Shown here: one piece after another, positions 5,253 to 33,622 of the stretch
How the letters are laid out: every line of letters begins with the position of its first letter
Numbering within the stretch: position 1 is the stretch's first letter
Origin: a virus
DNA length: 33,622 bases
Reading direction: 5' to 3' (one strand)
Virus record (IMG/VR): IMGVR_UViG_3300017971_002399
Coordinates: 1 to 33,622 of that record
Made by a program: the position numbers and the translations under genes
The notes under the pieces: generated by a model
What the model was told of the DNA's origin: nothing
What the model saw: only the letters and a program-made list of their open reading frames with translations
The model's database searches: none

Positions 5253-5258
5253 CGTGTT

Positions 5259-5552: not shown

Positions 5553-5563
5553 GGGGTATTGAT

Positions 5564-5716: not shown

Positions 5717-5721
5717 GGGGT

Positions 5722-7200
5722 ATGGATAATCTTGATGGTATTGAAGTCCCGAAGGACTGGGTGCCGATAATCAGTTGGCCCCAGTTTTTTTATGCTCAAC
5801 AGAAGGAGTATATTAATTCGGAGAAGTGGCAGACCTGGTTTATTGGGGGCAATGGTACGGGCAAGACGCACATGGTGTTTTGGAGTGTTGCGGCGTTGGT
5901 ATTGGGGATTCATCCGAAGCAGATTGCGCCGCCGCCGTTAAGGGTGTGTGTAATTGAGCCGGACTATGACAAGGTATTGGATGTTGCGTTGGAGAAGTTG
6001 CAGTCGCCCCAGGTGGTGATGCCGCACAACATTGAGCTAGGGGCGATGTTACCGCCTTCGATGGTCACGAAAGGGTACAACAAGGACCACAGGAGTATTG
6101 ATTTAAGGAATGGCAGTCAGATCATATTCGTCACGAACGAGCAGGGCTGGAAGGCGATGCGGGGGAAGCAGTTTGATGCGCTGGCCGTTGATGAGGAATG
6201 TGATCAGCGGGTGTTTGATGAGAATTTGAGAGGTTTAAGAAACGCGAAGGGTGGAGGCCGGGTGATTGCCGGGCTTACGCCGCCGTATGAAGAGGGCCAG
6301 GGCCCGACGTGGACGAAGGACCGGATTGTTGACAATGCGTTGGGGGACACGGACATTCATGTTGTGAATGCGTGTATGGCGGACAATCCGGCGATTACCT
6401 CCGAGTTTATCGAGCGGTTCAGCAGGGGTAAGACGCAAAAGCAGATAGATGTGCAGGTGTATGGCCGTTATCCTACTTGGGGTGATTTGGTTCACCCGGA
6501 TTTTCAGGATTCGTTGTGGAGCTATGAGAAGTGTCACGGGCATTTATTGCGGAACGACACCCCGATGCCGGAGGCGTATGAGGTTGACTGGGTAATGGCT
6601 TTTGACTGGCACCCCAGCAAGCCGTGCGCGGCGTTGTGGGGATGGGTGAGCCGGGATGGTAATATCACGATATTCGACGAGTTGGACAAGGAAGTTGCGC
6701 GGGACAAGGATATTAGTGAGCTGACCGACATTTTTAAGAATGTTGAGGGAGACCCGTTTTATAAGCGACGGTTTTCCAGGTGGCAGGACCCTAGTGCCAA
6801 GCAATTATATAAGGCGCAGGAGCGGGGTTTTAATGCGTGGGACGAGTTCAGGCGGTGCGGGATTGTCACATCGGCGGCGAGGAACCGGGACCCGTTGGTG
6901 GGAATCAGTATCGTCAACGATTACTTTAAGGGTAACGGGCGGGACACGCCTCGCCTATTTATTTATGAACGGTGCAAGTTCCTTAGACAGTACCTGCGGA
7001 ACCATTATTGGAAGCGGGGAGAGGATGGGGTTGGAAAGCCGGACCCGAAGTGGAGTGATTATCCCGTGTGTTTGAAATATATTTTACAGGAAGTCGGTTT
7101 GAAGCGGCAGAAGAACAGAAGGAACAATAAATGGCCGACGGTGAGTTATGGTAGGCCGGAGGTACGCCGTCCGACGATTGACTTGGGGAGATATTTTTAA
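5722..7200 (+). CDS. terL: Large terminase subunit (TerL)
   Basis: The DNA-packaging motor and nuclease of the phage. From ATG 5722 it is 492 aa. Walker A GGNGTGKT is at 42-49 and Walker B ALAVDEE at 153-159. The C-terminal nuclease half starts at about 290 with AFDWHPSKP (Asp295) and ends with a conserved packaging-nuclease-like helix around DYPVCLKYILQEVG. Length and domain order are normal for TerL. The GAGGGG run at 5715-5720 is only 1 nt from this ATG, so the start is not ideal. A TTG at 5713 has no ribosome site. It is separated from the portal gene by a sugar cassette rather than being adjacent as usual. Confidence 0.95.
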   Translation: MDNLDGIEVPKDWVPIISWPQFFYAQQKEYINSEKWQTWFIGGNGTGKTHMVFWSVAALVLGIHPKQIAPPPLRVCVIEPDYDKVLDVALEKLQSPQVVMPHNIELGAMLPPSMVTKGYNKDHRSIDLRNGSQIIFVTNEQGWKAMRGKQFDALAVDEECDQRVFDENLRGLRNAKGGGRVIAGLTPPYEEGQGPTWTKDRIVDNALGDTDIHVVNACMADNPAITSEFIERFSRGKTQKQIDVQVYGRYPTWGDLVHPDFQDSLWSYEKCHGHLLRNDTPMPEAYEVDWVMAFDWHPSKPCAALWGWVSRDGNITIFDELDKEVARDKDISELTDIFKNVEGDPFYKRRFSRWQDPSAKQLYKAQERGFNAWDEFRRCGIVTSAARNRDPLVGISIVNDYFKGNGRDTPRLFIYERCKFLRQYLRNHYWKRGEDGVGKPDPKWSDYPVCLKYILQEVGLKRQKNRRNNKWPTVSYGRPEVRRPTIDLGRYF

Positions 7201-7558: not shown

Positions 7559-7861
7559 ATGTGGCAAAGTTTAATAGCGACATGCTCCGGGGGTACGCCT
7601 GCCAATCAGTTGATATATACAGGAAACTGTAAATACGGCGGGATGACTATATACGATGACGGCACGAACAAACCGACGATTGCGGTTTATGACAATATCG
7701 CAGGTTCCGGTAGGGAATTAAGTCCGTCTTATGAATATTCTGTCGGGTATGGAATTCATGGTTATACGGTTCCGGCAGACGAAGGTGAGGAAGTAAAAAT
7801 CGGAATTTATGTGGCTATAACGTGCGCCGGAGCGGTAAAGGTAAAGATTTGGTACAAATGA
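7559..7861 (+). CDS. Small beta-rich protein, 100 aa
   Basis: ATG 7559 follows GGGAG and abuts the previous stop. The 100-aa product is rich in Gly, Tyr, Thr and Val with repeated short strands, fitting a beta-sandwich. Candidate roles are a capsid decoration or carbohydrate-contacting protein; no family is recognised. Its TGA overlaps the ATG of the sugar methyltransferase in an ATGA junction, so the two are translationally coupled. Confidence 0.6.
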   Translation: MWQSLIATCSGGTPANQLIYTGNCKYGGMTIYDDGTNKPTIAVYDNIAGSGRELSPSYEYSVGYGIHGYTVPADEGEEVKIGIYVAITCAGAVKVKIWYK

Positions 7862-8982
7862 ACTGTCGAGTATGCGGATATGGATACCTTGATTTGGTAC
7901 TGGACCTGGGGTATCACCCGCCGAGCGATGCGTTTTTAAGTGATTTGAATCAAACGGAAACCTATTACCCCTTGCGGATGGTGCAGTGTCCGAAGTGCGG
8001 GTTGGCGCAGCTTGACCATACCGTGCCGAAAGAAGTGTTGTTCAACAACGATTACCCGTATGAGACGGGGACGAATGTTGATGGTATCAAGCATTTTGCA
8101 GAGCTGGCGAAAACCGTGCTTGATGCCTACCAGTTGCAGTCGGTCGATTTGGTGGTTGATATTGGGAGCAATGACGGTACGTTGCTATCTCATTTTAAGA
8201 CGATGGGCTGCCGGGTTCTGGGGGTAGAGCCGGTCAAGCATATTGCGAAACATGCCAAAGTACGGACCTTGGACGGCTTTTGGGATGTGAACCTGGCGCG
8301 GAAAATTGTTGAAAGCTACGGCAAGGCTAAGGTGATAACGGCGACGAACGTGTTCGCGCATGTGGATGATTTGCACGAGTTCATGGGTGCGGTGGACGTG
8401 CTTTTGGACAAAAACGGGGTGTTTGTCGTTGAAGCGCCTTCCCTTCGATGCTTGGTGGATGAACTGGCCTATGACACGATTTACCATGAGCATTTGTCTT
8501 ACTTGGACCAGTTCCCTGTGTCCGTGCTGGTCAGCCAGTACAACATGAATGTTGTAGCGACTGAGCATCGGCAAGTTCATGGTGGCACGACCCGCTATTA
8601 TATTCTGAGAGGGGAATACCGAGAGCCAAGGGGTGAGCCGGTCGATTTTACCGGGTTCGCGCATCGGGTGATGTTGCATCGGTTGAACCTTAAGCGGATT
8701 GTTCCCCCGGATTGTGTCGGGGTGAGTGCGCCTGCCAAGGGGAACACGCTGTTGAATGTTGTGCCGATTGATTTGCGATATGTGACGGATAATTCCCCGA
8801 GAAAGATAAATAGGTTTACGCCGGGCCGTCATTTTCCCGTGTATGGGGATCATCGGTTGCTTGAGGATCAGCCGGGATTTGCCTTGATTTTGGCCTGGAA
8901 TTGGAAAGAGCAAATCAAGAGAAACTTGTCGGATTACAAGGGTGTTTGGATCGTGCCGTTCCCGGAGCCGCATTTTGAATAA
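7858..8982 (+). CDS. Sugar C-methyltransferase (TylCIII/TcaB9-like)
   Basis: A SAM-dependent enzyme of the family that adds a methyl group to carbon 3 of NDP-4-keto-deoxysugars. The three expected parts are visible in 374 aa: an N-terminal zinc domain with Cys3, Cys6, Cys44 and Cys47; a class I methyltransferase fold with motif VVDIGSNDG at 99-107; and the family YHEHLSY block at 209-215. A C-terminal domain carries SAPAKGNTLLN at 290-298. The segment between the catalytic block and the C-terminal domain seems short compared with usual members of about 400-415 aa. It leads a four-gene sugar cassette. Exact substrate unknown. Confidence 0.88.
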   Translation: MNCRVCGYGYLDLVLDLGYHPPSDAFLSDLNQTETYYPLRMVQCPKCGLAQLDHTVPKEVLFNNDYPYETGTNVDGIKHFAELAKTVLDAYQLQSVDLVVDIGSNDGTLLSHFKTMGCRVLGVEPVKHIAKHAKVRTLDGFWDVNLARKIVESYGKAKVITATNVFAHVDDLHEFMGAVDVLLDKNGVFVVEAPSLRCLVDELAYDTIYHEHLSYLDQFPVSVLVSQYNMNVVATEHRQVHGGTTRYYILRGEYREPRGEPVDFTGFAHRVMLHRLNLKRIVPPDCVGVSAPAKGNTLLNVVPIDLRYVTDNSPRKINRFTPGRHFPVYGDHRLLEDQPGFALILAWNWKEQIKRNLSDYKGVWIVPFPEPHFE

Positions 8983-9922
8983 AAACGCAAAGATTTATGT
9001 CGCCGGTCACATGGGCCTGGTGGGGTCCGCCATATACCGCGAATTAAAAGCACAAGGCTATACAAATGTATTGACGTTTGAACACCACGAATTTGATTTG
9101 GCCGACACGAATCAAACCAGGAAGCTGTTTGACAAGTATAAACCGGAATATGTGTTTTTGGCCGCCGCTTTTGCCGGGGGCATTAAACGGGCGATTGACA
9201 GTCCCAGCCAAATGCTTGTCGAGAATATGCTGATTGAGGCGAACGTAATCAAGCGGGCGTATTTAAGTAAAGTCAAAAAACTGATTTTTGTAGCCAGTTC
9301 GTGCATTTATCCCGTTAAAGGTACGCAACCATATGTGGAAGCGCAAATCGGAACGGGCAAGACGGATGAGAATTGGGGGTATGCCATTGCAAAGATAGCC
9401 GGGATTGAATTATGCCATGCCTATCACCGGCAATACGGTAAAGAATTTATGTCGGTTGTGCCGTGCAATATGTATGGTCCGAACGACGATTTTCAGGGAA
9501 AACATAATCATGTGATACCGGCGCTGATCGGCAAGTGTGTTGCAGCGGATGAAAAAGATACGATTGAATTGTTGGGGGACGGAAAAGCGACACGCGAATT
9601 TATGTACTCGGAGGATTTTGCCGAAGCCTGCGTAATGATTATGGAAAGTGTCAATTACGACGACATTCAGGGGGTGGTAAATGTCGGGACCGGGTATCAG
9701 GTAAGGATAGACAGTCTTTTCAACCTGATTAAACGGCTTGTCGGAAAGCCGGGATTGAAATGCAACTGGACGGGGAATATTGCGGGAGTTCCGGCCAAGC
9801 TGATGAGCAGTCAACGGTTGTCGGAAGTCTTGAACTGGCAACCGAAAACATCGTTACAAGAAGGGATAAAGCGTTCTTATGATTGGTATTGCACACATTG
9901 TAAATCCGGTGAAGGTGGATGA
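8975..9922 (+). CDS. fcl: GDP-L-fucose synthase-like epimerase/reductase
   Basis: An extended short-chain dehydrogenase resembling GDP-4-keto-6-deoxymannose 3,5-epimerase/4-reductase (Fcl/WcaG), which makes GDP-fucose. TTG 8975 is the best start: a CGGAG lies upstream, the overlap with the methyltransferase is 8 nt, and it places the NAD(P) motif GHMGLVG at 11-17. It gives 315 aa, the normal length. The catalytic Ser108/Ser109 and Tyr136-x3-Lys140 (YAIAK) are present, as are AAAFAGGI and the MYGPND block. The partner dehydratase Gmd is not in the window, so the precursor would come from the host or from another part of the phage genome. Confidence 0.88.
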   Translation: MNKNAKIYVAGHMGLVGSAIYRELKAQGYTNVLTFEHHEFDLADTNQTRKLFDKYKPEYVFLAAAFAGGIKRAIDSPSQMLVENMLIEANVIKRAYLSKVKKLIFVASSCIYPVKGTQPYVEAQIGTGKTDENWGYAIAKIAGIELCHAYHRQYGKEFMSVVPCNMYGPNDDFQGKHNHVIPALIGKCVAADEKDTIELLGDGKATREFMYSEDFAEACVMIMESVNYDDIQGVVNVGTGYQVRIDSLFNLIKRLVGKPGLKCNWTGNIAGVPAKLMSSQRLSEVLNWQPKTSLQEGIKRSYDWYCTHCKSGEGG

Positions 9923-16939: not shown

Positions 16940-17222
16940 TTATGACGATATCCGAAAGCATGTTGAGGCGGTCCAGAACGACATTGCAAAGCGGGAAAAA
17001 AAAAATGAACTTTTGGACCCGTTGTTGACCGGGACTTGTGTTCGATGCGGACAGCCATTGATTGACATCAATCAACCGCTCAAAATGTGCAGTCAATGTC
17101 TCAGGGATACAGGACATGATGTTTACGAGATGAGTAAGCGCAAGCGCAAGGCACAAGAAAAGAACAAGAAAATGCCGGCGCGTCATGTGCTTCATATCAA
17201 CCAGATAAAGACAATCGGATGA
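16920..17222 (+). CDS. Zinc-ribbon protein, 100 aa
   Basis: ATG 16920 lies 20 nt inside the previous gene. A helical N-terminal half (DDIRKHVEAVQNDIAKRE) is followed by two CxxC pairs (CVRCGQ and CSQC) and a very basic end (KRKRKAQEKNKK). It contains a run of ten A at 16996-17005, a possible slippage point. Its stop overlaps the methyltransferase start (ATGA at 17219-17222). Function unknown; the basic tail suggests nucleic-acid or membrane contact. Confidence 0.6.
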   Translation: MNTTKFDYDDIRKHVEAVQNDIAKREKKNELLDPLLTGTCVRCGQPLIDINQPLKMCSQCLRDTGHDVYEMSKRKRKAQEKNKKMPARHVLHINQIKTIG

Positions 17223-18016
17223 ACTGTATCATTTGCGGGAAAGAAAACTGGGACCAGGTGTTCAGCTACGCAAGGCCGGACCAATATGAATTGTGGTGCG
17301 GCCTGAAGGGGATGCTGCGGTTCTGGTATCGGTGTAAGGACTGCGGGTTTTATCAGGCATGGCATAGCTATGACCCGGACGAATTGGCACCTGTTTACAA
17401 ATCCGGGTATCGGGACACGGGATTCAGGAACGAAAGCATCAGTGAGGTGTTTCATCGGATTCTAAGTTTAGGGGACAAAAGCGAGAACAGTCACCGGCTT
17501 AAATGGTTCAAGGAACATATCGGCAACGGTGTCGGCAAGGTGTTGGACATTGGTTCCGGGTTCGGTATTTGGCCGTGGGCTTTGAAAACGGAAGGGTGGG
17601 AGGTTGAGTGTGTTGAACCTAATAAAGAAAGTGTTGATTTTATTAGTCATGAGCTTGGGTTGCCTTGTCATTCCGGGTTTTTTCGCTCTTGTATGGACGG
17701 CGACTGGGATGTTGTTTCTATTGTTCATGTTCTTGAACACATTAAAAATCTTGACGAATTTTTATTTAAGGTCCGTACCGGATTGAATGAGTCCGGGCGG
17801 GTATTCATAGAAGTCCCTGACGCTTGCGAGTTTGGATATTTGCCGAAAGAGCATGATGAGTTCAACAGTTGTCACCTTTACTTTTTCGATTTGTCGTCGT
17901 TAAACAGACTGCTTAATAAGTCCGGCTTGGAAATTATGGACGCACATAGAATCTTTTACAATGAGAGAAGGCTTTCGAGGATGATGGTGATATGCAAAAA
18001 GCAGTCCCGACAATGA
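17219..18016 (+). CDS. Class I SAM methyltransferase with N-terminal zinc knuckle
   Basis: 265 aa. Cys3/Cys6 and Cys39/Cys42 form a zinc-binding head. The Rossmann-type methyltransferase begins with VLDIGSGFG at 108-116 and has the VLEH motif at 171-174, placing it in the Methyltransf_23-like group that often acts on sugars or lipids. The zinc head plus this fold echoes the sugar C-methyltransferase at 7858, but the C-terminal KGN domain is missing, so O- or N-methylation of a glycan or small molecule is as likely. It overlaps the next gene by 25 nt. Confidence 0.8.
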   Translation: MNCIICGKENWDQVFSYARPDQYELWCGLKGMLRFWYRCKDCGFYQAWHSYDPDELAPVYKSGYRDTGFRNESISEVFHRILSLGDKSENSHRLKWFKEHIGNGVGKVLDIGSGFGIWPWALKTEGWEVECVEPNKESVDFISHELGLPCHSGFFRSCMDGDWDVVSIVHVLEHIKNLDEFLFKVRTGLNESGRVFIEVPDACEFGYLPKEHDEFNSCHLYFFDLSSLNRLLNKSGLEIMDAHRIFYNERRLSRMMVICKKQSRQ

Positions 18017-18654
18017 TGGTAAGATTAAATACAGCGGAAGGATTTATAGTAGATTTACCTCTTATGGGTCAACGGTTTTTGCACAGGGATTCAGGGAAAG
18101 CCTCACTGGATTTTACGGTTTATACCGAATGGTCTATTCTGGAAGCACTGGCAAAACCTATCTTGTTTTTTAATCCGTTTTGTGTGGTCGAGCTTGGCGC
18201 GGGAAAATCGACGGTTGGTTTGGCAAAGGCGGCACAAGAAATGGGTGTGACATTGCACACGGTAGATAAAAGGCCGGACAAAAAAGTGCAATATTTTGAA
18301 AACCATATCTACCACCACATGCTGACCGAAGAGTTTATGGATGATTTTGACGACACGCCTGCCCTGGTTTTGATTGATGCCGATCACTCGTATGAGATGA
18401 GCAAGCGGGAGTTCGAGTTTTTTTACAAAAAGCTGGTAATCGGTGGGGTGATATTTTTGCATGACACGTTCCCCCCACACGAGTTTTATTTAAGACCCAC
18501 GGGATGCGATGATGTTTACAAATTGCGCCGGGAGATAGAGGACAGGCGGGATGAGTTGGATTGTGATGTGTTTACCTGGCCTTACACGGCGCAGTTTATG
18601 GGTTTGACGATGGTAATCAAGAAAGACCCGGAAAGACCATACTTTGGAAGGTAG
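17992..18654 (+). CDS. Class I SAM methyltransferase (Methyltransf_24-like)
   Basis: 220 aa, ATG 17992. The SAM-binding loop VVELGAGKS lies at 65-73, an acidic residue ends the next strand (HTVDKRPDKK), and LVLIDADHSYEMSKREFEFF followed by GGVIFLHDTF is the pattern of the Methyltransf_24 / cephalosporin-hydroxylase-like group seen in surface-glycan loci. The same fold appears fused to the glycosyltransferase at 30820. Likely methylates a sugar or a similar acceptor; the substrate cannot be read. Confidence 0.78.
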   Translation: MQKAVPTMMVRLNTAEGFIVDLPLMGQRFLHRDSGKASLDFTVYTEWSILEALAKPILFFNPFCVVELGAGKSTVGLAKAAQEMGVTLHTVDKRPDKKVQYFENHIYHHMLTEEFMDDFDDTPALVLIDADHSYEMSKREFEFFYKKLVIGGVIFLHDTFPPHEFYLRPTGCDDVYKLRREIEDRRDELDCDVFTWPYTAQFMGLTMVIKKDPERPYFGR

Positions 18655-18657
18655 ACA

Positions 18658-19599
18658 ATGAAACTGATAAATCCTGAAGTCCGAATCGAAACCACGAGCT
18701 TTTGCAATTATAACTGCAAGATTTGTCCACGGGACAAAATGACACGCCCGAAAGTGACAATGGACTTTGATCATTTCATGGACCTTGCGATGCAGGCGGA
18801 AGAGCTAGGGGCCACCCTGATTTCGCTGTTCGGATACGGGGAGCCATTGATGGATAAAACTTTGCCGGAAAAGATTGAGATATGCAGTGAGTTGGGGCTC
18901 GATACTTTTATCACGTCAAATGCTTCACTGCTTGATGTGGAGATGTATAAAAAGCTGCGCGATGCCGGGTTGAGCGAAGTTCGTATATCTCATCATGCGT
19001 TAAAGCCGGATAACTACGAGGACGTTCACGGGTGCGGGTTCGATTATGACAACATTGTACTGCGGAACATTTACAATTTTATCGCCTGCAACCGGACGGA
19101 CGGCGGAAACATAAAAATAGGGATTACGGTCATTCCCATGCACGGTGAAAGCGTAGATGATATCCGGACGGCTTGGGAGCATAATGGGGTGGATTATCTG
19201 GAAATATGGAAGCCCCATAATTGGGCGTATGGAAGACAATACCGGGATGTTAAAATCAAGAAGCGTACCTGCGGGAGACCTCATAGGGGGCCGATACAAA
19301 TCAATGCGGACGGAAAGATGATGGTATGTTGTTTTGATTTTGATGCACACATGACTGTCGGGGATACCTACCAGGACAGCATTGAAAATATTTTAAAAGG
19401 TGACACATTCAAAAAGATTCGTATTGCACATGAAACGGGCATGGTGGACGGATTGCCGTGCGAGCATTGCGACCAACTGAACATCGAGGATGAAAACCCC
19501 CTGCTGTATTCGAGCAGGGACCAAACAAAAACAATCGGATGTACTTCAAGTACGAAATTTAAATTGGAGGATATTAAAGATGGCACTAACACTGAGTGA
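18658..19599 (+). CDS. Radical SAM enzyme with SPASM-type C-terminal domain
   Basis: 313 aa. The [4Fe-4S] cluster motif CNYNCKIC gives Cys16, Cys20 and Cys23, followed by a radical-SAM GYGEPLMD-type block. The C-terminal Cys205, Cys224/Cys225 (MVCCFDFD) and Cys268/Cys271 (CEHC) form an auxiliary-cluster region of SPASM or Twitch type. Such enzymes modify peptides (RiPPs, quinohaemoproteins), tRNA or sugars by radical chemistry. The gene ends by overlapping the small protein at 19580 by 20 nt, so that protein could be a substrate; this is only suggested by coupling. Confidence 0.85.
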   Translation: MKLINPEVRIETTSFCNYNCKICPRDKMTRPKVTMDFDHFMDLAMQAEELGATLISLFGYGEPLMDKTLPEKIEICSELGLDTFITSNASLLDVEMYKKLRDAGLSEVRISHHALKPDNYEDVHGCGFDYDNIVLRNIYNFIACNRTDGGNIKIGITVIPMHGESVDDIRTAWEHNGVDYLEIWKPHNWAYGRQYRDVKIKKRTCGRPHRGPIQINADGKMMVCCFDFDAHMTVGDTYQDSIENILKGDTFKKIRIAHETGMVDGLPCEHCDQLNIEDENPLLYSSRDQTKTIGCTSSTKFKLEDIKDGTNTE

Positions 19600-24563: not shown

Positions 24564-25406
24564 ATGGCAGCACCAATATATTTAGACAAGCGTGGACCGT
24601 TTGAGCGCATGATGCCGAATGTCATGCAAATGCTTTTGGCAAATCAGATGAGGACGCGGCAGTTGCAGGAACAGAACCAGCTAAACTTGCAACGGGAGGG
24701 TTACAAAACCGTTCCAGACCAACCCGGCGACCAGTTTGCCTTTTCGTATAATAAACGCAATTATTATCGACCACAAGCACCTCAACTACCGCCTGAACAG
24801 CCAAGAGTTGTGCCGATAGAAGCAGATGGCAAACTGCTTGGCCATGCCGTATCTTTCGGTAAAAGCACAAAGTTTTTTAGTGCGCCGAAAAAAACGGACC
24901 CGTCTTATAACATCCATTTTGCGACAGACGATAAAGGTAATGTCACTCGTGTTATCACAGACCCTCAAAGTCAAAAAACAGTATCCAAAGAAAACTTGGG
25001 GACAATAGGCAAAAGCGGTCAATCCGGTATCCAGGTAAGCATCGAGGATAGGACAAGACAGCAGGCAACCGCAAGAAATAAAACTTGGGCGGAAGGTCCC
25101 AGTTTTTCAACCGATATAGAAAAAGAAGCAATGGCGAAGATGCCGAGTAAGCAGGAGTGGTCTTTTTTATCTCCCGCCACTAAGTATCAGGCAAAACGAG
25201 AACGAGCGGAAGCGGCTTTGCAGAGAATTTATGGAAATAAAAATGTCAAGTATGGGGTGGACGCTGAAAACGGATGGGGCTTTATGATAAGAAACGGAAA
25301 AACGACCACGTTTATTCCGTGGGAAAGCCCAGTGGTTCAATTCTTTCCAGAACAGGAGATGAATGCAGAAGGTGGGCAAGTTTTACGAGGAACCCTCCCA
25401 AAATAA
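24564..25406 (+). CDS. Internal virion-type protein, 280 aa
   Basis: ATG 24564 with GAGGGGG upstream. The N-terminal helix (MMPNVMQMLLANQMRTRQLQ, then EQNQLN) is followed by a Pro-rich linker, a basic middle and a C-terminal globular part. The basic, partly disordered character and location between two virion-type genes suggest a DNA-ejection or tail-assembly protein. No named family. It overlaps the next gene by 44 nt. Confidence 0.55.
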   Translation: MAAPIYLDKRGPFERMMPNVMQMLLANQMRTRQLQEQNQLNLQREGYKTVPDQPGDQFAFSYNKRNYYRPQAPQLPPEQPRVVPIEADGKLLGHAVSFGKSTKFFSAPKKTDPSYNIHFATDDKGNVTRVITDPQSQKTVSKENLGTIGKSGQSGIQVSIEDRTRQQATARNKTWAEGPSFSTDIEKEAMAKMPSKQEWSFLSPATKYQAKRERAEAALQRIYGNKNVKYGVDAENGWGFMIRNGKTTTFIPWESPVVQFFPEQEMNAEGGQVLRGTLPK

Positions 25407-27933
25407 AGAGGACTGGTATTTTAATATCCGGCGGCAGTTTATCAAAACAAAGCCGCAGTTTTTTCCTCTCATAGAACCAAACTTGAAAAAGGCGCTAGGG
25501 GCTTATGCAACGGGGCGAATCCCTCAAACTGTTCCCTATGCTTTTAGGGAGACTTTGGAAAGGTTGGAAGAAACAATGCCCGCAGCGGCAATCCCCGAGC
25601 TTGCCAAACAAATGCCGTCGGCTTATGTGGACCAGGCGATTCTCGGATTAATGTCGGGATATCCTGGGGGAGCAAAAGGCGCTTCGAGTGTTGGTTCTGT
25701 TAGAAAAATTACAAGGAGAGGAAAGACTACGGAATACGCGAGTTCAGTGAATTTAGAGAAACAGAAAATACCGCAATCTCTTAAAGACATTGAACGTATA
25801 ATGGCTGAACGTGTTCACCAAAATGTTCAAGGTTGGGACAAAACCGGCAAATTAAGCAAAGACCTTTATAACGACTTTGAAAAAATGAAAAAGGTTGTTA
25901 GTCGTAAAGGGGCGAAGAGTGCCGTTGAGATTGATGCAATTCGTCAGTTGAATGTTGATGCGCTTGCCTACTTGAGACATCTTGCAATTTCCAAGTTACC
26001 GCGATCCGAATTTGACCGTGCCTTCAATATTTACAAGGATAAGATTTTTACGGCAACCACAAAAGCCGCAGAAGAAACCGGACGTGCGTTGAATATATTC
26101 AAACGTGATGTGTCTTTAAACCGAATTGCAAAATCATTCACAAAATTGGAGAGAGGTCTTAACGAACGAGAATTAACCGAATTTAAAAACTTAAACTTTG
26201 AAGATGCAACGGCGGTTAAATTTTTCATAGACCGTTTGGGAAACCCAAAGTTGAAAGATTATGTGATTGAGTATTGGTACAATCAAATCCTTTCCGGTAT
26301 CCCGACCCACCTTGTTAATGTCGGCAATAATACGTTGTGGTATTTGTTTCAAGTCCCTCATCGTGCTCATGCAGGTGTTTGGGATAAAATAATAAAAGCA
26401 TACACGGGGGGGGGACGAGAGCGGTTTGTAAAAGAAGCTATCCCTTTATTTGCGGGATTGAAGTCAACCGGCAAAGGGCTAAAAGGTGCCGGAGAATTAT
26501 TGAGGTCGGGCCAAATAACATCGTTTGAATCCAAATGGGCGATGGAACAAGGATATGCAATGGGGGCTTTTGAACGTAGCCCATCTAAAGCCGTTAGAGA
26601 AATAGGCAAGTATTTGACAGTTCCTACCAAAGCGTTGCGGGGTATGGATGTTATGGCGAAAACGATAGCTTTTGATGGTCAAATGAAAGCTATTGCCTTA
26701 AGAACGGGGCTGCAAAACAAGTTAAAAGGGCAAGCACTTCAAAAGCATATACAAGGCTTTTTAAAAAAACCGCCGGACTGGGCTTTCGATAATGCAAAAA
26801 AATTTGCAGACTATGCAACATTTATGGATGAGCCGGGTGCCGTATCAACGGCAATCATTCATCTACGGGATGCTATTCCCGGTGGGGTAGGTCGGTTTAT
26901 TGTGCCATTTGTAAACACAATCGGCAATCTTATGAAGCGGGGGATTGAAATGACCCCTGGTGTCGGGTTGGGTTTATTGAAAGGTCAACCTAAAGCAGAG
27001 ATTGTATCAAAACAAATAGAAGGGCTGATATTAACAACATACGCTTTAAAGAAATTCATGACCGGCGATATTATAGGAGAGCAACCGGATAATAAAGCCG
27101 AACGAGATGCCATGTATCGAAGGGGTGAAAAGCCTTGGTCTATCAGGATAGGAGATGAATGGTTTCAATATAGACGTGTGGAACCGTTCTCTACGGTTAT
27201 TGGTGCAACATCTATTGTAGCACAGAAGTTGAAAGAACATGCTTCAGAAAATGAAATAAGCGAGGCATTGTTAAATTCGGCTGCCGCGTATAAGAATTTT
27301 TTGATTGATTCAAGTTACTTGAGCGGGATTAGTCAAATATTTGATAGGTATGGTAGCAGAGAAGGTATGATTAAAAGAACAGCGACAAGTATGGTGCCCT
27401 ATTCAAGTTTTTGGCGGTCAATTCAGAGAGCATACGAGGCAGAAGTCCAGGGAGAAGCAAAACTACGAGAGAGCAACGATTGGTTAGATGCGTTTAGAAT
27501 TAATATCCCTCCGGGATTGATGAAAGGTTCTCCCTCAAGGTTGAATGTTTGGGGAGAAGAAATCATATTGGAGGGGGGAGCTTTTCGGCAATGGCTGCCT
27601 TTTAAATGGAGCAAGGAAACTAGGGACCCGGTGGAATTAACATTAAAAAAATTAAACACATATCCGACTCCGCCCTCTCAAGAAGTTACTTATCGTAAAA
27701 AGCGGATAAAGTTAGATGATGAAGTTTACAGGGATTTTGTATTGCGTTCAGGAAAAGATTTGAAGGAAGCGTATGAGGATTTTTTAATTCAACCTCATAT
27801 GCAAAAGCATATTGAAAATCCTGAAAAACATAATGATATTATTAACCTTTTATCATCAAAACGAACATATATTTATAACAAATGGAGAACAAAGGCAATT
27901 CAAGAACATTTAAAATTGGGGAATGCAAAATGA
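25363..27933 (+). CDS. Large internal virion / polyvalent-type protein, 856 aa
   Basis: ATG 25363 with AGGAG 5 nt upstream. At 856 aa it is the largest gene in the window. The middle has LSGIPTHLVNVGNNTLWYLF, resembling the recurring motif of large polyvalent or internal virion proteins in many podophages, which travel with the DNA into the host. Hydrophobic stretches and repeated helical Lys-rich segments (TGKGLKGAGELL; AMGAFERSPSKAVREIGKYL) suggest membrane interaction. It contains a run of nine G at 26406-26414. Its DNA is more A-rich than the genes before it, perhaps marking a module boundary. Enzymatic domain not identified. Confidence 0.68.
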   Translation: MQKVGKFYEEPSQNKEDWYFNIRRQFIKTKPQFFPLIEPNLKKALGAYATGRIPQTVPYAFRETLERLEETMPAAAIPELAKQMPSAYVDQAILGLMSGYPGGAKGASSVGSVRKITRRGKTTEYASSVNLEKQKIPQSLKDIERIMAERVHQNVQGWDKTGKLSKDLYNDFEKMKKVVSRKGAKSAVEIDAIRQLNVDALAYLRHLAISKLPRSEFDRAFNIYKDKIFTATTKAAEETGRALNIFKRDVSLNRIAKSFTKLERGLNERELTEFKNLNFEDATAVKFFIDRLGNPKLKDYVIEYWYNQILSGIPTHLVNVGNNTLWYLFQVPHRAHAGVWDKIIKAYTGGGRERFVKEAIPLFAGLKSTGKGLKGAGELLRSGQITSFESKWAMEQGYAMGAFERSPSKAVREIGKYLTVPTKALRGMDVMAKTIAFDGQMKAIALRTGLQNKLKGQALQKHIQGFLKKPPDWAFDNAKKFADYATFMDEPGAVSTAIIHLRDAIPGGVGRFIVPFVNTIGNLMKRGIEMTPGVGLGLLKGQPKAEIVSKQIEGLILTTYALKKFMTGDIIGEQPDNKAERDAMYRRGEKPWSIRIGDEWFQYRRVEPFSTVIGATSIVAQKLKEHASENEISEALLNSAAAYKNFLIDSSYLSGISQIFDRYGSREGMIKRTATSMVPYSSFWRSIQRAYEAEVQGEAKLRESNDWLDAFRINIPPGLMKGSPSRLNVWGEEIILEGGAFRQWLPFKWSKETRDPVELTLKKLNTYPTPPSQEVTYRKKRIKLDDEVYRDFVLRSGKDLKEAYEDFLIQPHMQKHIENPEKHNDIINLLSSKRTYIYNKWRTKAIQEHLKLGNAK

Positions 27934-28466
27934 AAAAACTACTTATCGCATTGTGCTTATTGTTTTATTCAACTTTCGCGTATGCCGACGGGTCGGTTAC
28001 AATCGAACCGGGATATGGTGACGACTCAACATTTACTATTAAATTCGTGTGCGTGGGGGACGCATCGGACGGTGATGTACCGGACACTGACACGGATTCT
28101 CAGACGTATCTCGGTGAACCGTTTACCAAATTTATACAAGGTATGCACTTGTATGAGGTGAGGGCGTATGCCGGAGCGACGGCACCAACAGACGATACGG
28201 ACATCTTTTTGTTTATGTATTTGGATGAAGATACAAAGATTGATTTGTTGGGTTCCGTGGACAATTCAACAGCATATGCCGGTTTGAATTTATTGGAAAA
28301 CACGGGCGCGTTGGGGCGTGCGACATTGCCTGATTTATATAATAAACGAGCAGGTGAACATTTTACCCATTATTGGAAAATAACCGGGAAAATCGAACTA
28401 AGTGTTTCATCAGACCAGGCAGTAAACAATGCGACTTGGACGGTTGAGGCAGTGTTTGTAAAATAA
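27930..28466 (+). CDS. Exported protein with Sec signal peptide, 178 aa
   Basis: ATG 27930, 4 nt inside the previous gene. The N-terminus MKKLLIALCLLFYSTFAYA is a clear signal peptide with an AYA cleavage end. The mature part is acidic, Thr/Asp-rich and beta-like. Export is unusual for a phage gene in a structural run: the product could act on the host surface (superinfection exclusion, receptor masking) or be a virion-associated or secreted protein. It is followed by a terminator. Confidence 0.7.
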   Translation: MKKLLIALCLLFYSTFAYADGSVTIEPGYGDDSTFTIKFVCVGDASDGDVPDTDTDSQTYLGEPFTKFIQGMHLYEVRAYAGATAPTDDTDIFLFMYLDEDTKIDLLGSVDNSTAYAGLNLLENTGALGRATLPDLYNKRAGEHFTHYWKITGKIELSVSSDQAVNNATWTVEAVFVK

Positions 28467-28492
28467 CATAGCCGACATGAAACTTTTCACCC

Positions 28493-28515
28493 TGCCGCTT
28501 TTAGCGGCTTTTTTT
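28493..28515 (+). terminator. Intrinsic terminator
   Basis: GCCGC (28494-28498), loop TTTTA, GCGGC (28504-28508), then seven T to 28515. It ends the transcript after the first exported-protein gene and separates it from the paralogous exported protein downstream. Confidence 0.82.
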
Positions 28516-28557
28516 ATGTCTAATGGATTAACAGAGTATGGAAGGAGTCTTAAAGCA

Positions 28558-28884
28558 ATGAAAAAGTTATTGATGATTGTTTTGGCGCTTATGTTTCTAC
28601 CCACCTTGGCATGTGCCGACTGGTCCGTGACGGCGACCTGGACCAGGAGCATCGGTCCTAATTTGGATTTTGAGGAATGTCAACTCGATGGTGTCACAAA
28701 ATGCACGGTGCAAGAGACTGATCCGACAACCTGCACGTTTACGGTTACGGATCTCATAGGCCAGGAGGTGAAGATTGTTAGTTACAACGTCCAAGGCGCG
28801 TCTGTTGAGTATGTTATTGGTACGCTGCTTGATGTTCCTGCTCCTGCTAGCGGCGGTAGTCTTACTGTCGTTTACGTTCCTTAG
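28558..28884 (+). CDS. Exported protein with signal peptide, 108 aa
   Basis: ATG 28558 with GGAAGGAG at 28541-28548. MKKLLMIVLALMFLPTLACA is a signal peptide very like that of the gene at 27930, and both mature parts start ADxSVT, suggesting duplication of a secreted module. The mature 88 residues form a beta-sandwich with three Cys (ECQ, KCT, TCT). Its 3' part carries the AGGAGGTG ribosome site of the next gene. It may be partner or chaperone to the Ser-rich protein. Confidence 0.68.
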   Translation: MKKLLMIVLALMFLPTLACADWSVTATWTRSIGPNLDFEECQLDGVTKCTVQETDPTTCTFTVTDLIGQEVKIVSYNVQGASVEYVIGTLLDVPAPASGGSLTVVYVP

Positions 28885-30820
28885 AGCGGATCAGGTTGCG
28901 TTTCAATGGGATCCGAACACAGAAGAGGACCTTGCCGGATACCGCCTTCATTGGGGGGCGGAGTCCGGGGTCTATACCTCGACGCTGGATGTCGGCAATG
29001 TTACGACTTACACGGCGGAGATACCGGATCAAAGCTACATTGCGCTTACGGCATACGATACAGAGGGATTTGAGAGTGGTTACAGTAATGAGCTTTATTA
29101 TGCGATTCAAACACCGGATGAGATATACCCGGCAACAGACGGACAGTTACATTGGGAGTGGACCGAGGTAAATATGTCATACCCGCAATACTCAGAAGCA
29201 TGGGATTTTACTGGCAATGTAGCCTCTGATGCGAATTGGGATGTAGGAGACGATGGGTCTGCTGGAACGCCATATGCCGACAGCTCCAATATGTTTATCG
29301 CGAGTACTGTAAATTACAATGGCTATAATCTCGTTTATCAGACTGCTTGTGATTCGGTCAACCAATGTGTGTTAGTTCGTCTCAACTATTTGGAGGGCAA
29401 CGCCGGCTCTTTCGGCGCGATGTTCCGGCAGGCAAATGCCGATGGAAGTGGTGCGTGCTATTGGGTCAATTTACGGTGGGATGGATCTTCCAACTGGCAG
29501 TTCAATGTTGAGAGATATAATGGAGTTTCATGGCAAGAGACTGTCGGAACTAGGATAAATGTTACCGCACCTAACGCAAATGATTATTTCGGATTCTCTG
29601 TTGAGGGCACGGGGAATGACACGGTTTTTAAATATTGGGACTTCGGGAACAGCGACCCCGGCGATTTTGAGAATTGGGGGGACCCGACTCAAACACAGAC
29701 AGGCAACCCGTCTACTGCGGTTGATACGGGCAGCTATGTCGGGCAGAGTATTTATTATCTCACATCCGCTGGTTCCGATCACAAGTACGACTTATGGCGC
29801 GGCGGGGACCAGGAGGCGGCAGGCTCCCCCAGTGCTTCAATTTCACCGAGTCTAAGTGCATCTGTCTCTCCATCGGCTTCTGAAAGTGCGTCAGTTTCAC
29901 CTTCCGTTTCCCCAAGTGCTTCTGTATCCCCATCGGTCAGCCCCAGTGCTTCCGAATCACCAAGCATCAGTCCCTCGGCAAGTGAGTCTCCATCTGTTTC
30001 ACCCTCGGCCAGTGTTTCACCAAGCGTAAGTCCTTCAGCATCAGTATCACCATCCGCTTCCGAATCTCCTTCGGTGTCACCCTCTGCCTCGGTCAGTCCA
30101 TCGGTTAGTCCGTCTGCGTCCGAATCGGCGTCACCCTCGGCCTCAGTTTCTCCATCTATATCACCGAGCGCGAGTGAGTCACCCTCAGTCTCCCCGTCGG
30201 CCTCAGAATCACCTTCAGTATCACCATCGGCCTCTGAAAGCCCAAGCGTTAGCCCTAGTGCATCAGAAAGCCCATCGGTTTCTCCATCAGCGTCTATTTC
30301 GCCAAGTTCTTCCGAGTCTCCCTCAGTCAGTCCATCAGCTTCGGAAAGTCCAAGCGTTTCCCCATCCGCGAGTGAGTCACCGAGTGTAAGTCCATCGGCT
30401 TCAGTATCGCCTAGTCCAAGTCCAGGGTCAGAATCGGCTTCCATAAGTCCGTCAATATCGCCAAGTGCATCTGAAAGCCCAAGCGTAAGCCCATCGGCAA
30501 GCGAATCTCCGTCTGAATCGCCATCTATATCACCATCGGCGAGTGAATCTCCGTCGGTCAGTCCTTCAGCTTCTGTGTCGCCTTCGGTCAGTCCGAGTGC
30601 TTCCGAATCACCCAGTATCAGTCCATCGGCATCTGAATCACCGTCCGTAAGCCCCTCTGCTTCAGAGTCGCCCTCAGAGTCGCCTTCTGTTTCACCGTCA
30701 GCATCTTTGTCGCCCTCAGCTTCTTTAAGCCCTTCAGCATCAGTCAGTCCATCGGCAGGGTTCATATATCAACCAAGAGGATTATTAATGGGCGTATATC
30801 GAGTTAGGAGAATTTCATAA
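28775..30820 (+). CDS. Secreted/anchored Fn3 protein with 311-residue Ser/Pro mucin-like repeat
   Basis: 681 aa from TTG 28775, chosen because AGGAGGTG (28763-28770) sits 4 nt upstream; ATG 28811 has no comparable site. A hydrophobic signal or anchor is at 18-36 (end LRA/DQ). An Fn3 domain occupies about 40-115 (WDPNTEEDLAGYRLHWG to FESGYSNEL). A lectin- or LamG-like beta domain spans about 130-345. The tract of residues 351-661 is almost only Ser, Pro, Ala, Glu and Val in repeating SPSASESPSVSPSA-type units. The tail is short and basic (YQPRGLLMGVYRVRRIS). All six Ser codons are used, so the peptide pattern is kept by selection. It overlaps the glycosyltransferase gene by 1 nt and is a strong candidate for dense O-glycosylation. 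Confidence 0.78.
   Translation: MLVTTSKARLLSMLLVRCLMFLLLLAAVVLLSFTFLRADQVAFQWDPNTEEDLAGYRLHWGAESGVYTSTLDVGNVTTYTAEIPDQSYIALTAYDTEGFESGYSNELYYAIQTPDEIYPATDGQLHWEWTEVNMSYPQYSEAWDFTGNVASDANWDVGDDGSAGTPYADSSNMFIASTVNYNGYNLVYQTACDSVNQCVLVRLNYLEGNAGSFGAMFRQANADGSGACYWVNLRWDGSSNWQFNVERYNGVSWQETVGTRINVTAPNANDYFGFSVEGTGNDTVFKYWDFGNSDPGDFENWGDPTQTQTGNPSTAVDTGSYVGQSIYYLTSAGSDHKYDLWRGGDQEAAGSPSASISPSLSASVSPSASESASVSPSVSPSASVSPSVSPSASESPSISPSASESPSVSPSASVSPSVSPSASVSPSASESPSVSPSASVSPSVSPSASESASPSASVSPSISPSASESPSVSPSASESPSVSPSASESPSVSPSASESPSVSPSASISPSSSESPSVSPSASESPSVSPSASESPSVSPSASVSPSPSPGSESASISPSISPSASESPSVSPSASESPSESPSISPSASESPSVSPSASVSPSVSPSASESPSISPSASESPSVSPSASESPSESPSVSPSASLSPSASLSPSASVSPSAGFIYQPRGLLMGVYRVRRIS
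29825..30757 (+). repeat. Ser/Pro low-complexity coding repeat
   Basis: 933 nt encode 311 residues of degenerate repeats with core SPSASESPSVSPSAS. Synonymous codons vary widely between units, so it is not a fresh slippage array. Mucin-like composition fits an extended, glycosylated stalk. Confidence 0.8.
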
Positions 30821-32283
30821 TGCTTTCAGTGGTTATCCCGGCACGAAACGAGCCTTATTTGCAAAAAACGATAGACGATATTTTTGATAAGGCCGAGGAA
30901 GACCTGGAAATTATCACAATATTGGACGGATATTGGCCTGATCCGCCGTTAAAAGAGGATAAACGTGTTAAGGTCATTCATTGGACGGAATCACGGGGAA
31001 TGCGTAAAGCGATCAATGCCGGCGCGAAAATAGCGCAAGGCAAATATCTAATGAAGTGTGACGCCCACTGTTGCTTTGACCAGGGGTTTGACAAAAAGCT
31101 CAAAGCGGATTGCGAATATGACTGGACGGTCGTACCCAGGCGATATGATCTTAGAAGAAAGACTTGGGAGAGGGGAGATAAAATATACGATTTTCAGTAT
31201 ATCACGAACCCGAAAGACGAACGCTATCCTATGAAAGGTGCCAACTGGCCGGAGTACGCAGAACGGGTAAAAGTCCAGGAGATATGCGATTTAATGACTT
31301 CCCAGGGGTCGTGCTGGTTTATGCACTGGCAACGGTTTTGGGACTTGGGCGGTCTTGACGATGTAAACTACGGCACAATGGGTAGGGAAGCGCAGGAAAC
31401 ATGCTTGAAAGCGTGGCTTTCCGGGGGTCGTTATGTATTAAATCGAAAGACATGGTATGCACATTGGAAGAAAAACGCCGGGAAACATCACCCGTGGAGA
31501 GCAACGTATCCAAAGCCGGTAGGGGATCGTGAAAAATCAAGAGATTATGTCATTGAATGTTTTACAAAAAATAACTGGCCGTTACAGAAGCGTAAGTTTG
31601 AGTGGATAATTGAACACTTTAAGCCCGTACCCACATGGCATAGGAGAGAGAGTTTGGAGCCTATACGATACATACAGGAAACATGGAAGCTAGGAAATGC
31701 ACAAGACCTGCCTATTGAGCTAAAAGGCATCAATCGTGTGGATATGTATAAGCTATTTAAAAAATGCGGATATAAGCGCGGTGCGGAAATAGGCGTATGG
31801 GCGGGAAGAAACGCTCAGGATATTGTCCATGAGATACCCCGTGTCAGGTTATTTCTCATCGACCAATACAAAGATTACCGGGGTGCCCGCAAGCCGCGAG
31901 GGAACAGCAGGCATCAAAAAGCGGAACATCAGGCTCATAAGGCGATGAAGAGTCATAACGTCAAATTTTTAAAGATGAAAAGCGAAGAGGCTATCAATCA
32001 TTTTAAAGACGGGACACTGGACTTCGTGTATATCGACGGGAACCATTTATATGACTATGCCATGCTCGATATTCTTCTGTGGTCGAGAAAAGTCAGGGTG
32101 GGGGGCGTAATTAGCGGGCATGATTATTACAACGCTGATAAATCACGGGTTGGGGTAAAAAGCGCGGTAGACGATTACACCCGATACCACAAAATAAACC
32201 CTTGGTATATCACGGATATGGTGAAGGAAAGGGAACGCAAAAAGAAGAATCCAAGACGGTCTTGGTTCTGGGTAAAACAATGA
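30820..32283 (+). CDS. Bifunctional glycosyltransferase (polypeptide GalNAc-T-like GT2/27) fused to SAM methyltransferase
   Basis: 487 aa, ATG 30820 with AGGAG at 30806-30810, coupled to the Ser-rich gene. The GT-A domain (1-240) has VVIPARNE, TILDGYWPDPP, the metal motif DAH at 81-83 after YLMK, GGLDDVNYGTMGREA and AWLSGGR, and a distal His215 in WYAHW. DxH plus a third His is the metal set of polypeptide GalNAc-transferases rather than of DxD enzymes. The C-terminal half (about 315-487) is a Methyltransf_24 domain with GAEIGVWAGRN and YIDGNHLYDYAMLD, then SGHDYY. The fusion suggests sugar transfer coupled to methylation. Donor and acceptor unproven. Confidence 0.82.
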   Translation: MLSVVIPARNEPYLQKTIDDIFDKAEEDLEIITILDGYWPDPPLKEDKRVKVIHWTESRGMRKAINAGAKIAQGKYLMKCDAHCCFDQGFDKKLKADCEYDWTVVPRRYDLRRKTWERGDKIYDFQYITNPKDERYPMKGANWPEYAERVKVQEICDLMTSQGSCWFMHWQRFWDLGGLDDVNYGTMGREAQETCLKAWLSGGRYVLNRKTWYAHWKKNAGKHHPWRATYPKPVGDREKSRDYVIECFTKNNWPLQKRKFEWIIEHFKPVPTWHRRESLEPIRYIQETWKLGNAQDLPIELKGINRVDMYKLFKKCGYKRGAEIGVWAGRNAQDIVHEIPRVRLFLIDQYKDYRGARKPRGNSRHQKAEHQAHKAMKSHNVKFLKMKSEEAINHFKDGTLDFVYIDGNHLYDYAMLDILLWSRKVRVGGVISGHDYYNADKSRVGVKSAVDDYTRYHKINPWYITDMVKERERKKKNPRRSWFWVKQ

Positions 32284-33622
32284 CAGAATTATCAGTTATA
32301 ATCCCCGGCAGAAATGAGATGTTTTTCAAAAACACGATTGAAAACGTGTTGGCAAACATCCGAGGGGATACTGAAATCATTGGAATATGTGACGGTAATT
32401 GGCCTGATCCGCCCATACCAGATGATCCCAAGGTAAACCTTGTCCACCATACAAAACCCATCGGACAAAGGGCTTCGACCAATGAAGGGGTCGGTCTATC
32501 GGAAGCCAAGTATATCATGAAGTTGGATGCTCATTGTGCGGTCGATGAAGGTTTTGACGTTAAGCTCATGGCTGATTGTGAGTATGATTGGACAGTCATA
32601 CCCAGGATGTATAACCTTCATGCCTTTAATTGGATATGCAAGAAATGTGGAAATGAAACTTACCAAGGCCCGACGCTGACAACGTGCGAGAAATGCGACA
32701 ACACGACAGAGTTTGAGCGCAAGATTCTCTGGCAACCACGCAGAGACAAGCGCACAGATTATATGTGGTTTGACACAAATCTTCATGTTGCGTATTTCGA
32801 CAAGAATTATCTCAAGGAATACGGCAATGATATTGACGCGCTCAAACAAAAGTACGATCACAGGCGCAGGGAATGGGCGAAGGCCGACATTACCGATGTC
32901 ATGTGCGGGGTTGGGGCGTGTTTTTTCATGGAACGAGAGCGGTATTGGGAACTCGGCGGCATGGACGAAGAACATGGTTCATGGGGTCAAATGGCTGTGG
33001 AAGTCGCCTGCAAGACATGGCTTTCCGGCGGGCGGCAGGTGGTAAATAAGAAAACATGGTTTTCTCATATGTTTCGGACGCAAGGCGGTGACTTTGGGTT
33101 TCCGTTTCCCATATCATCCGGGGATATTAAAACCGCCAGAAAGCGATCCCGGAACCTATGGTTCGGGAACTCTTGGCCGAAAGCGGAACGCAAGTTTGAC
33201 TGGTTGATAGAGCATTTTGCGCCTTTACCCGGTTGGGGAACGAAGCTCAAGAAAAGCAAAAGCAAGGCAACGAAGGGGATTGTCTATTATACGGACAATC
33301 ATTGTGAGGAACGGCTGGTCCGCATTTGCCGAAGGCAGTTGCTTAAATGCGTGAACGGGTTTCCGATTGTGTCCGTGAGCCATATCCCTATCAATTTGGG
33401 AAATAATATTGTCGTCGATTGGCAACGGGGCCGTGAGAGCTTATTTAGGCAAATCTTACTGGGCCTTGAAAATATCAATGCCGATATTGTGTTTTTGTGT
33501 GAGCATGACGTTATTTATCATCCAAGCCATTTTGACTTTACCCCGACCCGGAAAGACAGGTTTTACTATAACACGAACCGATGGCAAGTAAACGCGAAGA
33601 CAGGGGATGCGCTGTCCAGGCA
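32280..33622 (+). CDS. Double glycosyltransferase, partial (runs off window)
   Basis: ATG 32280 in an ATGA junction with the previous gene; open to the window end (at least 447 aa). Domain 1 is a paralogue of the upstream GT: VIIPGRNE, CDGNWPDPP, DAH at 83-85, GGMDEEHGSWGQM, CKTWLSGGR and His263 in WFSHMFR. An inserted zinc knuckle (Cys120, Cys123, Cys136, Cys139) lies in the middle. From about residue 330 a second GT-like domain begins (GIVYYTDNHCEERL; FLCEHDVIYHPSHF), with an acidic EHD motif. It therefore probably adds two sugars or extends one. The 3' end is missing. Confidence 0.8.
   Translation, partial: MTELSVIIPGRNEMFFKNTIENVLANIRGDTEIIGICDGNWPDPPIPDDPKVNLVHHTKPIGQRASTNEGVGLSEAKYIMKLDAHCAVDEGFDVKLMADCEYDWTVIPRMYNLHAFNWICKKCGNETYQGPTLTTCEKCDNTTEFERKILWQPRRDKRTDYMWFDTNLHVAYFDKNYLKEYGNDIDALKQKYDHRRREWAKADITDVMCGVGACFFMERERYWELGGMDEEHGSWGQMAVEVACKTWLSGGRQVVNKKTWFSHMFRTQGGDFGFPFPISSGDIKTARKRSRNLWFGNSWPKAERKFDWLIEHFAPLPGWGTKLKKSKSKATKGIVYYTDNHCEERLVRICRRQLLKCVNGFPIVSVSHIPINLGNNIVVDWQRGRESLFRQILLGLENINADIVFLCEHDVIYHPSHFDFTPTRKDRFYYNTNRWQVNAKTGDALSR

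Follow-up and report, generated by a model that had tools for sequence, protein, structure and literature searches.

Polypeptide N-acetylgalactosamine (GalNAc)-transferases (CAZy family GT27) start mucin-type O-glycans, and mucin-type O-glycosylation by GT27 enzymes is found in animals and some protists. For such an enzyme from T. gondii, one account gives Asp276, His278 and His414 as the metal ligands (PMC11074326). Ser-rich repeat adhesins of streptococci, staphylococci and L. reuteri are described as long Ser-rich acceptors encoded together with their own glycosyltransferases (GTs) and SecA2/SecY2; there, GtfA/GtfB prime the protein with N-acetylglucosamine (PMC6973325). For the mycobacteriophages Che8, Corndog and Myrna, phage GTs are described to modify virion proteins and to shield them (PMC12363180, PMC10877033). 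Here, we report a locus in virus DNA that combines a Ser-rich, mucin-like protein with two GTs resembling GalNAc-transferases. It lies at the end of the stretch analysed, called the window: positions 1-33,622 of IMG/VR record IMGVR_UViG_3300017971_002399, one strand. We consider it likely that a tailed phage carries here a self-contained, GT27-like cassette for mucin-type O-glycosylation.

The final 4.8 kb of the window contain three open reading frames (ORFs) in one orientation: 28775-30820 (681 amino acids, aa) for the Ser-rich protein, 30820-32283 (487 aa) for the first GT, and 32280 to the end (447 aa) for the second GT, which runs open off the contig end. The Ser-rich ORF overlaps the first GT ORF by 1 nucleotide (nt), and the first GT ORF overlaps the second by 4 nt; both overlaps had been pointed out in an earlier note on this DNA and agree with the ORF coordinates. 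The upstream DNA has the look of a tailed phage, with homologues of primase, portal, major head protein and internal virion protein.

With the GT27 enzymes, the locus shares the GT-A fold (top Z values of 28 and 26 for the two predicted domains) and a Ser/Pro-rich acceptor candidate that adjoins the phage enzymes. DxH and distal His residues are likewise shared, as far as the account of the T. gondii enzyme gives them (PMC11074326). In contrast, identity in the structural alignments amounts to just 16-23%, the setting is prokaryotic, the phage enzymes have a methyltransferase or an additional GT-like domain as fusion partner, one of their two types (P3, see below) is without the donor-pocket Glu, and they are known here from genes and models. 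Since no ricin lectin domain was found and activity is only predicted, we class the enzymes as GT27-like and not as members of GT27, although the cassette is predicted to work like mucin-type O-glycosylation. The Ser-rich adhesin systems resemble the locus in one respect, the clustering of a Ser-rich acceptor with its own GTs; they employ GtfA/GtfB, whereas the enzymes here are GT27-like GT-A proteins matching Glycos_transf_2. With the mycobacteriophages, phage-encoded GTs are the common element. Compared by description, as far as the sources cited above give it, capsid and tail tube are modified there, whereas a mucin-like tract accompanies a GT27-like pair here. Among the matches listed in the open-licence PubMed Central literature, none described phage or patescibacterial GT27-like enzymes that come with Ser-rich acceptors.

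The two predicted glycosyltransferases

AlphaFold2 models of the GT domains are confident, with a predicted local distance difference test (pLDDT) of 85.4 for the first GT and 90.3 for the second. In Foldseek searches, polypeptide GalNAc-transferases fill the best 50 matches for each. VIA-align places GalNAc-T2 on top for both, with Z 28.1, root mean square deviation 2.5 and 261 aligned residues for the first GT and Z 26.4, 2.8 and 265 for the second. Ranks 1-29 are all GalNAc-transferases, down to Z 25.1 (first GT) and 23.3 (second GT); the best other GT follows at rank 30 with Z 19.6 and 19.7, respectively. The best GalNAc-transferase is thus 8.5 and the lowest listed one 5.5 Z units ahead for the first GT, and 6.7 and 3.6 for the second. 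A phmmer search of PDB sequences with the second GT alone has polypeptide GalNAc-transferases on top (E 2.8e-5), and a profile search finds GalNAc-T1 as best match (1.1e-13). The profile of the first GT matches a generic GT (2.4e-10) and then TgGalNAc-T3 (1.3e-8). Pfam labels both GTs as Glycos_transf_2 only. Of the viral models, BFVD entry A0A516LS96, a 323-aa viral protein, resembles the second GT most closely in structure (E 8.9e-19) and may be an earlier-deposited relative.

The metal-set residues are D81/H83/H215 in the first GT and D83/H85/H263 in the second. Judged from the sequence, these are the same ligand types as given for the T. gondii enzyme (PMC11074326). Across 252 non-redundant related domains they are near-invariant (DxH Asp in 250, its His in 249, distal His in 250). 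The earlier assignment of GT-A enzymes with DxH and a distal His is thereby borne out, and the comparison with GalNAc-transferase folds, proposed at the time as a check, finds a GT27-like active site kept in both models. By these predictions, both catalytic domains are GT27-like in fold and metal-site residues. They had also been called paralogous, which holds in the form of two sister groups. Labelled by scores against the window's own two enzymes, the domains fall into a P2 type (first GT) and a P3 type (second GT); in a tree of the 252 domains, one branch with support 0.987 matches these labels for 250 of them. Of the 103 viral GT loci, 70 contain members of each group.

The donor pocket separates the two types. 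W-G-G-E-N-x-E, which we take to be the donor-pocket motif of GalNAc-transferases, is visible in the GalNAc-transferase sequences aligned to both window GTs. The P2 type keeps its second E in 119 of 124 domains and its W in just 10 of 124; the P3 type keeps W and second E in 126 of 128 each, and the first E in 1 of 128. At the position of GalNAc-T2 E334, presumably a contact to the donor sugar, E or D is present in 118 of 124 P2 domains, and E in 1 of 128 P3 domains, so that donors may differ from GalNAc. Because the acid is kept in P2 and lost in P3, the two groups probably carry out different steps or use different donors. As a donor sugar, GalNAc is not favoured over others.

Some features of the enzyme architecture had escaped the earlier note. 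A Methyltransf_24 domain, whose profile finds 6g7d as best match in the PDB (E 7.7e-4), is joined to the first GT in one protein; we take 6g7d to be a sugar O-methyltransferase. The second GT carries a four-Cys insert and a further domain. Three of the four insert columns hold Cys in 104-109 of 128 P3 domains and the fourth in 68 of 128, and the strict CxxC...CxxC pattern is found in 47 of 128 P3 domains versus 0 of 124 P2 domains. The further domain has only a sub-threshold Pfam match (E 0.0057); in relatives, it also occurs as stand-alone ORFs. L002 encodes a homologue of the second enzyme in full length (4129-5823).

Linkage of the transferases to Ser-rich open reading frames

Viral GT loci were compared with random viral loci using a strict criterion, an ORF with at least 60 S/T/P-rich residues and at least three SPS (at least four SPS in the reverse test below). 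The 103 GT loci were reduced to 80 distinct ones by dropping those with an identical GT stretch; L001 and L027, copies of the window and of L002, were left out of the counts. A strict Ser-rich ORF is present in 60 of the 80 distinct GT loci versus 1 of 120 random loci. As the random loci are shorter (mean 8.7 kb versus 15.7 kb), loci of at least 12 kb were counted separately, and here 45 of 57 GT loci have such an ORF versus 1 of 33 random ones. Within 3 kb of the GT, it lies on the same strand in 57 of 80 loci and never on the opposite strand; in 24 of 80 loci it is at most 30 nt away from a GT. By a looser criterion (60 S/T/P-rich residues), the counts are 21/25 versus 6/80; by another (S+T at least 40% over 60 aa), 71/80 versus 32/120. 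The 25-locus set, like the 78-locus set used below, includes near-duplicates. A control with GDP-fucose-synthase-like relatives from IMG/VR yielded 2 loci, none with a Ser-rich ORF, and is too small to be informative.

The linkage also appears in the reverse direction. A search with the DNA repeat pattern found 58 loci. A Ser-rich ORF is present in 47 of them, of which 20 have a GT, versus 0 of 120 random viral loci. When the duplicates L172, L195 and L205 are dropped, 17 GT-bearing loci remain; several of the contigs had also been found by the GT scans. GTs and Ser-rich ORFs are linked far beyond chance, and the search for the same gene pair in other phage genomes, suggested in the earlier note, thus found it conserved. 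A scan of GTDB genomes revealed 53 further GT loci; 41 belong to records whose titles we read as Patescibacteria (Candidate Phyla Radiation, CPR) lineages, and a Ser-rich ORF is present in 23 of the 53.

The closest relative, L027 (the copy of L002), was compared over 13.5 kb of its 36 kb and is 78-80% identical in DNA. Similarity starts at 29812, 13 nt before the Ser-rich tract, and continues to the window end; the head-encoding part before it is unrelated. Relative to this phage, tract and both GTs form one conserved block by sequence. The window's major head protein matches in none of 27 relatives' records chosen from the 103 loci, and its portal has one weak match there; these proteins may be too diverged, and the records may be fragments. 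Terminase_6N matches in 12 of the 27, in 9 above cut-off. Based on these three counts, the gene set seems to be spread over different phages. Hitch-hiking within one lineage was considered as a cause of the linkage; it is unlikely by the head and portal counts, which are weak evidence as they come with no positive control. Neither the second GT nor the 4.8-kb region nor the GTs of two relatives found a match in 50,697 GenBank phage records. The first GT has 9 partial matches there, 8 in the methyltransferase domain and 1 over residues 2-82.

These data bear on a rival explanation in which the GTs decorate a host surface polysaccharide, a lipid carrier or phage DNA, and the tract is a flexible or stiff linker that lies nearby by chance. 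It would agree with the generic Pfam label, with the polysaccharide enzymes WrtF and chondroitin polymerase K4CP that come next at Z 18-20, with nucleotide-sugar genes in the window and with repeat-found loci that have no GT. We regard it as improbable, as GalNAc-transferases outscore all other GTs by the margins given above, the linkage holds in both search directions and the conserved block is bounded at the start of the tract.

Gene order is informative as well. In 9 of 25 loci, the Ser-rich ORF is located directly 5' of a GT (-14 to +13 nt), which is of P2 type in 7; with a wider range (-14 to +280 nt), this applies to 17 of 78 loci and the P2 type to 15. In many other loci, the Ser-rich ORF is found 3' of a P3-type GT. 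Both enzymes might merely extend a glycan started by the host, i.e. be GT27-like in fold with sugars as acceptors. The loss of the donor-pocket Glu and the added domain in the P3 type fit this idea, and so do two diverged paralogue groups that suggest two different steps. We consider it unlikely: the GalNAc-T-like Glu is kept in the P2 type, it is this type that directly follows the Ser-rich ORF in 7/9 and 15/17 cases, and the set recurs across different phages and bacteria.

The proposed cassette builds on adjacency, shared orientation, predicted fold, metal residues, linkage and the conserved block. The first enzyme would act in the infected cell's cytoplasm and add a sugar (GalNAc or another hexose or N-acetylhexosamine) to many Ser of the tract, with metal bound as in GalNAc-transferases via DxH and the distal His. 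The second enzyme together with its extra domain would extend or branch the glycan, and the methyltransferase would cap a sugar with a methyl group. The product would be a stiff, densely glycosylated stalk carrying an exchangeable head, most likely a virion appendage in the tail or fibre region that extends and shields the binding head. We are rather confident that the tract Ser is the acceptor and lean slightly towards the P2-type enzyme as the one that starts the glycan. Extension and methylation by the other domains have an even chance of being right, and the same applies to the virion stalk.

Several observations weigh against this interpretation, apart from the donor-pocket acid lost in the P3 type. 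Neither window enzyme has a Pfam match to a ricin lectin domain, nor do 37 P3-type relatives in their aligned part (37 of 38 P3-type references, L204 being left out). A strict Ser-rich ORF is missing in 20 of the 80 viral GT loci and even a loosely S/T-rich one in 9 of 80; contig ends account for some share of these cases. Among the distinct loci from GTDB genomes, a strict Ser-rich ORF is seen in just 22 of 51. Furthermore, 27 of the 47 repeat-found loci have no GT in the stretch seen, which is often short.

The Ser-rich protein and its destination

The tract comprises 310 aa, one less than the 311 Ser/Pro-rich residues counted in the earlier note, and is composed of 156 S, 60 P, 33 A, 28 V, 21 E, 8 I, 3 L and 1 G, with no T. 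All six Ser codons are used, and Tandem Repeats Finder reports a single 60-bp array within it. For these two reasons, the tract looks as if it were maintained as protein and not as DNA repeat, and an origin by DNA slippage is unsupported. An ORF of 328 aa runs antisense to the tract (29779-30765, minus strand) and is probably a by-product of its composition. Behind the tract, the last 21 residues are alike in the window and its closest relative (AGFIYQP.../AGYIYVP...). The head in front of it has no match in Pfam and PHROG scans and is unlike that of the closest relative.

N-terminal signals were judged by a plain hydrophobicity measure, the best 14-mer mean with a cut at 2.0. Of 151 distinct Ser-rich ORFs, that of the window begins with the most hydrophobic stretch by a wide margin (3.27). 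Two others lie barely above the cut (2.18 and 2.06) and do not look signal-like, so a clear signal-like start is present in 1 of 151 and a conserved signal peptide of these proteins was rejected. Moreover, TTG 28775 is preceded by AGGAGG and ATG 29174 by GAGG; judging from this, a start at ATG 29174 could give a leaderless protein. The former description as signal-bearing therefore applies to the hydrophobic start of the window's copy; it is weakened by the relatives, which do not share it, and by the alternative start.

Two destinations had been envisaged, a stalk or a secreted shield. Since no relative has a comparable N-terminus, two heads are tail-like and an internal-virion-protein homologue is a neighbour, a virion appendage is favoured with modest confidence over a secreted shield: the stalk still stands as a proposal, and the shield is disfavoured by relatives that look leaderless. 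The window's Ser-rich ORF is the third gene downstream of the internal-virion-protein homologue, and in L012 a 40% identical homologue of the latter precedes the Ser-rich ORF. When eight upstream window proteins and the Ser-rich ORF head were compared with the loci, 25363-27933 was the only one with a homologue (2 matches). A PHROG scan of 10 heads gave 4 with a match, 2 of them to tail families (the viral L263 and L250, which comes from a bacterial genome), and a Pfam scan of 9 heads also gave 4 (Laminin_G_3 plus DUF2341; LRR_5; Gly_rich_2 twice). There are counterpoints to the virion appendage: tail-family heads number just 2 of 10, one of them from a bacterial genome, these scans give no match for the head of the window or that of its closest relative, and the window's own copy has a signal-like N-terminus.

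Instead, the Ser-rich protein might be exported to the surface of the infected cell as a secreted or anchored mucin-like coat, e.g. against superinfection. The hydrophobic stretch that opens the window's copy and the scarcity of tail-like heads in the sample would fit. In addition, a TatC homologue is the next sizeable ORF, 570-880 nt downstream of the Ser-rich ORF, in 4 of the 12 GTDB-genome loci that have this ORF with at least 900 nt after it. Yet, none of the viral loci compared has a TatC homologue, a clear signal-like start is confined to one ORF, and the internal-virion-protein homologue adjoins in the gene order of both the window and L012. Export thus appears doubtful for the phage protein, and the virion appendage is the destination we prefer.

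Spread, neighbouring genes and meaning

The set is not confined to viruses. The surroundings of the GT loci in the large contigs L213, L241 and L243 look cellular. In L243, Polysacc_synt_2, Epimerase_2 and a further epimerase ORF, together presumably similar to the synthesis of UDP-N-acetylfucosamine, are followed by methyltransferase, GT and Ser-rich ORFs and then by TatC and a Mg-chelatase-like gene. TatC in this position may serve to export, by a route of its own, a protein that has received its glycans while still in the cytoplasm. A Terminase_6N match was found in 2 of 13 such genomes, counted irrespective of its position relative to the GT loci. The GT tree has groups that contain viral as well as genome sequences, with 36 changes against a shuffled mean of 75, which suggests repeated transfer and not free mixing; some of the mixing may stem from phage contigs that were binned into draft genomes. 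The term phage system in the earlier note is consequently right in that phages carry the set and too narrow in that Patescibacteria genomes carry it, too.

The window contains other modification genes. An MptE-like ORF (Pfam PF01973; 15534-16805) is located directly 3' of the major head protein and possibly represents a second, capsid-related modification; PF01973, as we understand it, also holds Maf flagellin glycosyltransferases. A sugar C-methyltransferase-like ORF followed by a GDP-L-fucose-synthase-like ORF is found at 7822-9922 (NCBIfam NF047922, 305.6 bits, under the cut-off of 500), and a Methyltransf_23 ORF and a radical SAM/SPASM ORF lie at 17219-19599, within the block of structural genes. 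Near the GTs, a GDP-fucose-synthase-like ORF and a radical SAM ORF turn up in 1 of 103 viral loci each, which places the window's remaining sugar genes outside the cassette. Two short ORFs that have a signal-like start lie at 27882-28884, behind the internal virion protein gene and ahead of the Ser-rich ORF; neither has a Pfam or PHROG match or a homologue in the loci compared. The features of the cassette and the TatC genes are listed in Table 1.

Table 1. Coordinates of the cassette features in the window and of TatC genes in genome loci
Feature	Position	Strand	Remarks
Ser-rich (mucin-like) protein ORF	28775..30820	+	681 aa from TTG; alternative starts ATG 28811, ATG 29174
Variable head of Ser-rich protein	28775..29824	+	hydrophobic N-terminus, then a stretch Fn3-like to the eye, then a further domain
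Ser/Pro/Ala tract, proposed O-glycan acceptor	29825..30754	+	310 aa, 156 Ser, no Thr
C-terminal tail of Ser-rich protein	30755..30817	+	21 aa, AGFIYQPRGLLMGVYRVRRIS; closest relative L002: AGYIYVPEILLGVYRMKRIPA
GT-A domain, enzyme 1 (P2 type), residues 1-276	30820..31647	+	DxH 31060-31068, distal His 31462-31464
Class I S-adenosylmethionine (SAM) methyltransferase domain (Methyltransf_24), fused to enzyme 1	31705..32280	+	possibly sugar O-methyltransferase
GT-A domain, enzyme 2 (P3 type), residues 1-320	32280..33239	+	DxH 32526-32534, distal His 33066-33068
Four-Cys (zinc-ribbon-like) insert, P3 type, residues ~118-161	32631..32762	+	weak likeness to ribosomal eL37
Further domain of enzyme 2 (YYTDN...EHD), residues 331-447	33270..33620	+	perhaps another glycosyltransferase; cut by contig end
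TatC or TatC-like genes	L207 12097-12828; L227 19737-20495; L241 19075-19809; L243 16904-17638		all in Patescibacteria-titled records

Taken further, and tentatively, the data could reflect a whole prokaryotic mucin-type system composed of leaderless Ser-rich giants, a conserved GT27-like pair, sugar O-methyltransferases and, in some Patescibacteria, neighbouring TatC export. The cassette would shuttle between phages and Patescibacteria and share ancestry with the enzymes that start mucin glycans in animals. Provided that the tract does carry glycans, GT27-type mucin O-glycosylation would have a counterpart that is widespread in prokaryotes and phages, with neighbouring genes for acceptor and enzymes. 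Bacteria would then offer, with two enzymes, a natural way to make dense Ser O-glycans, and the Ser-rich repeat proteins found across many uncultured phages and Patescibacteria would have an explanation. How mucin-type glycosylation arose would become a testable question.

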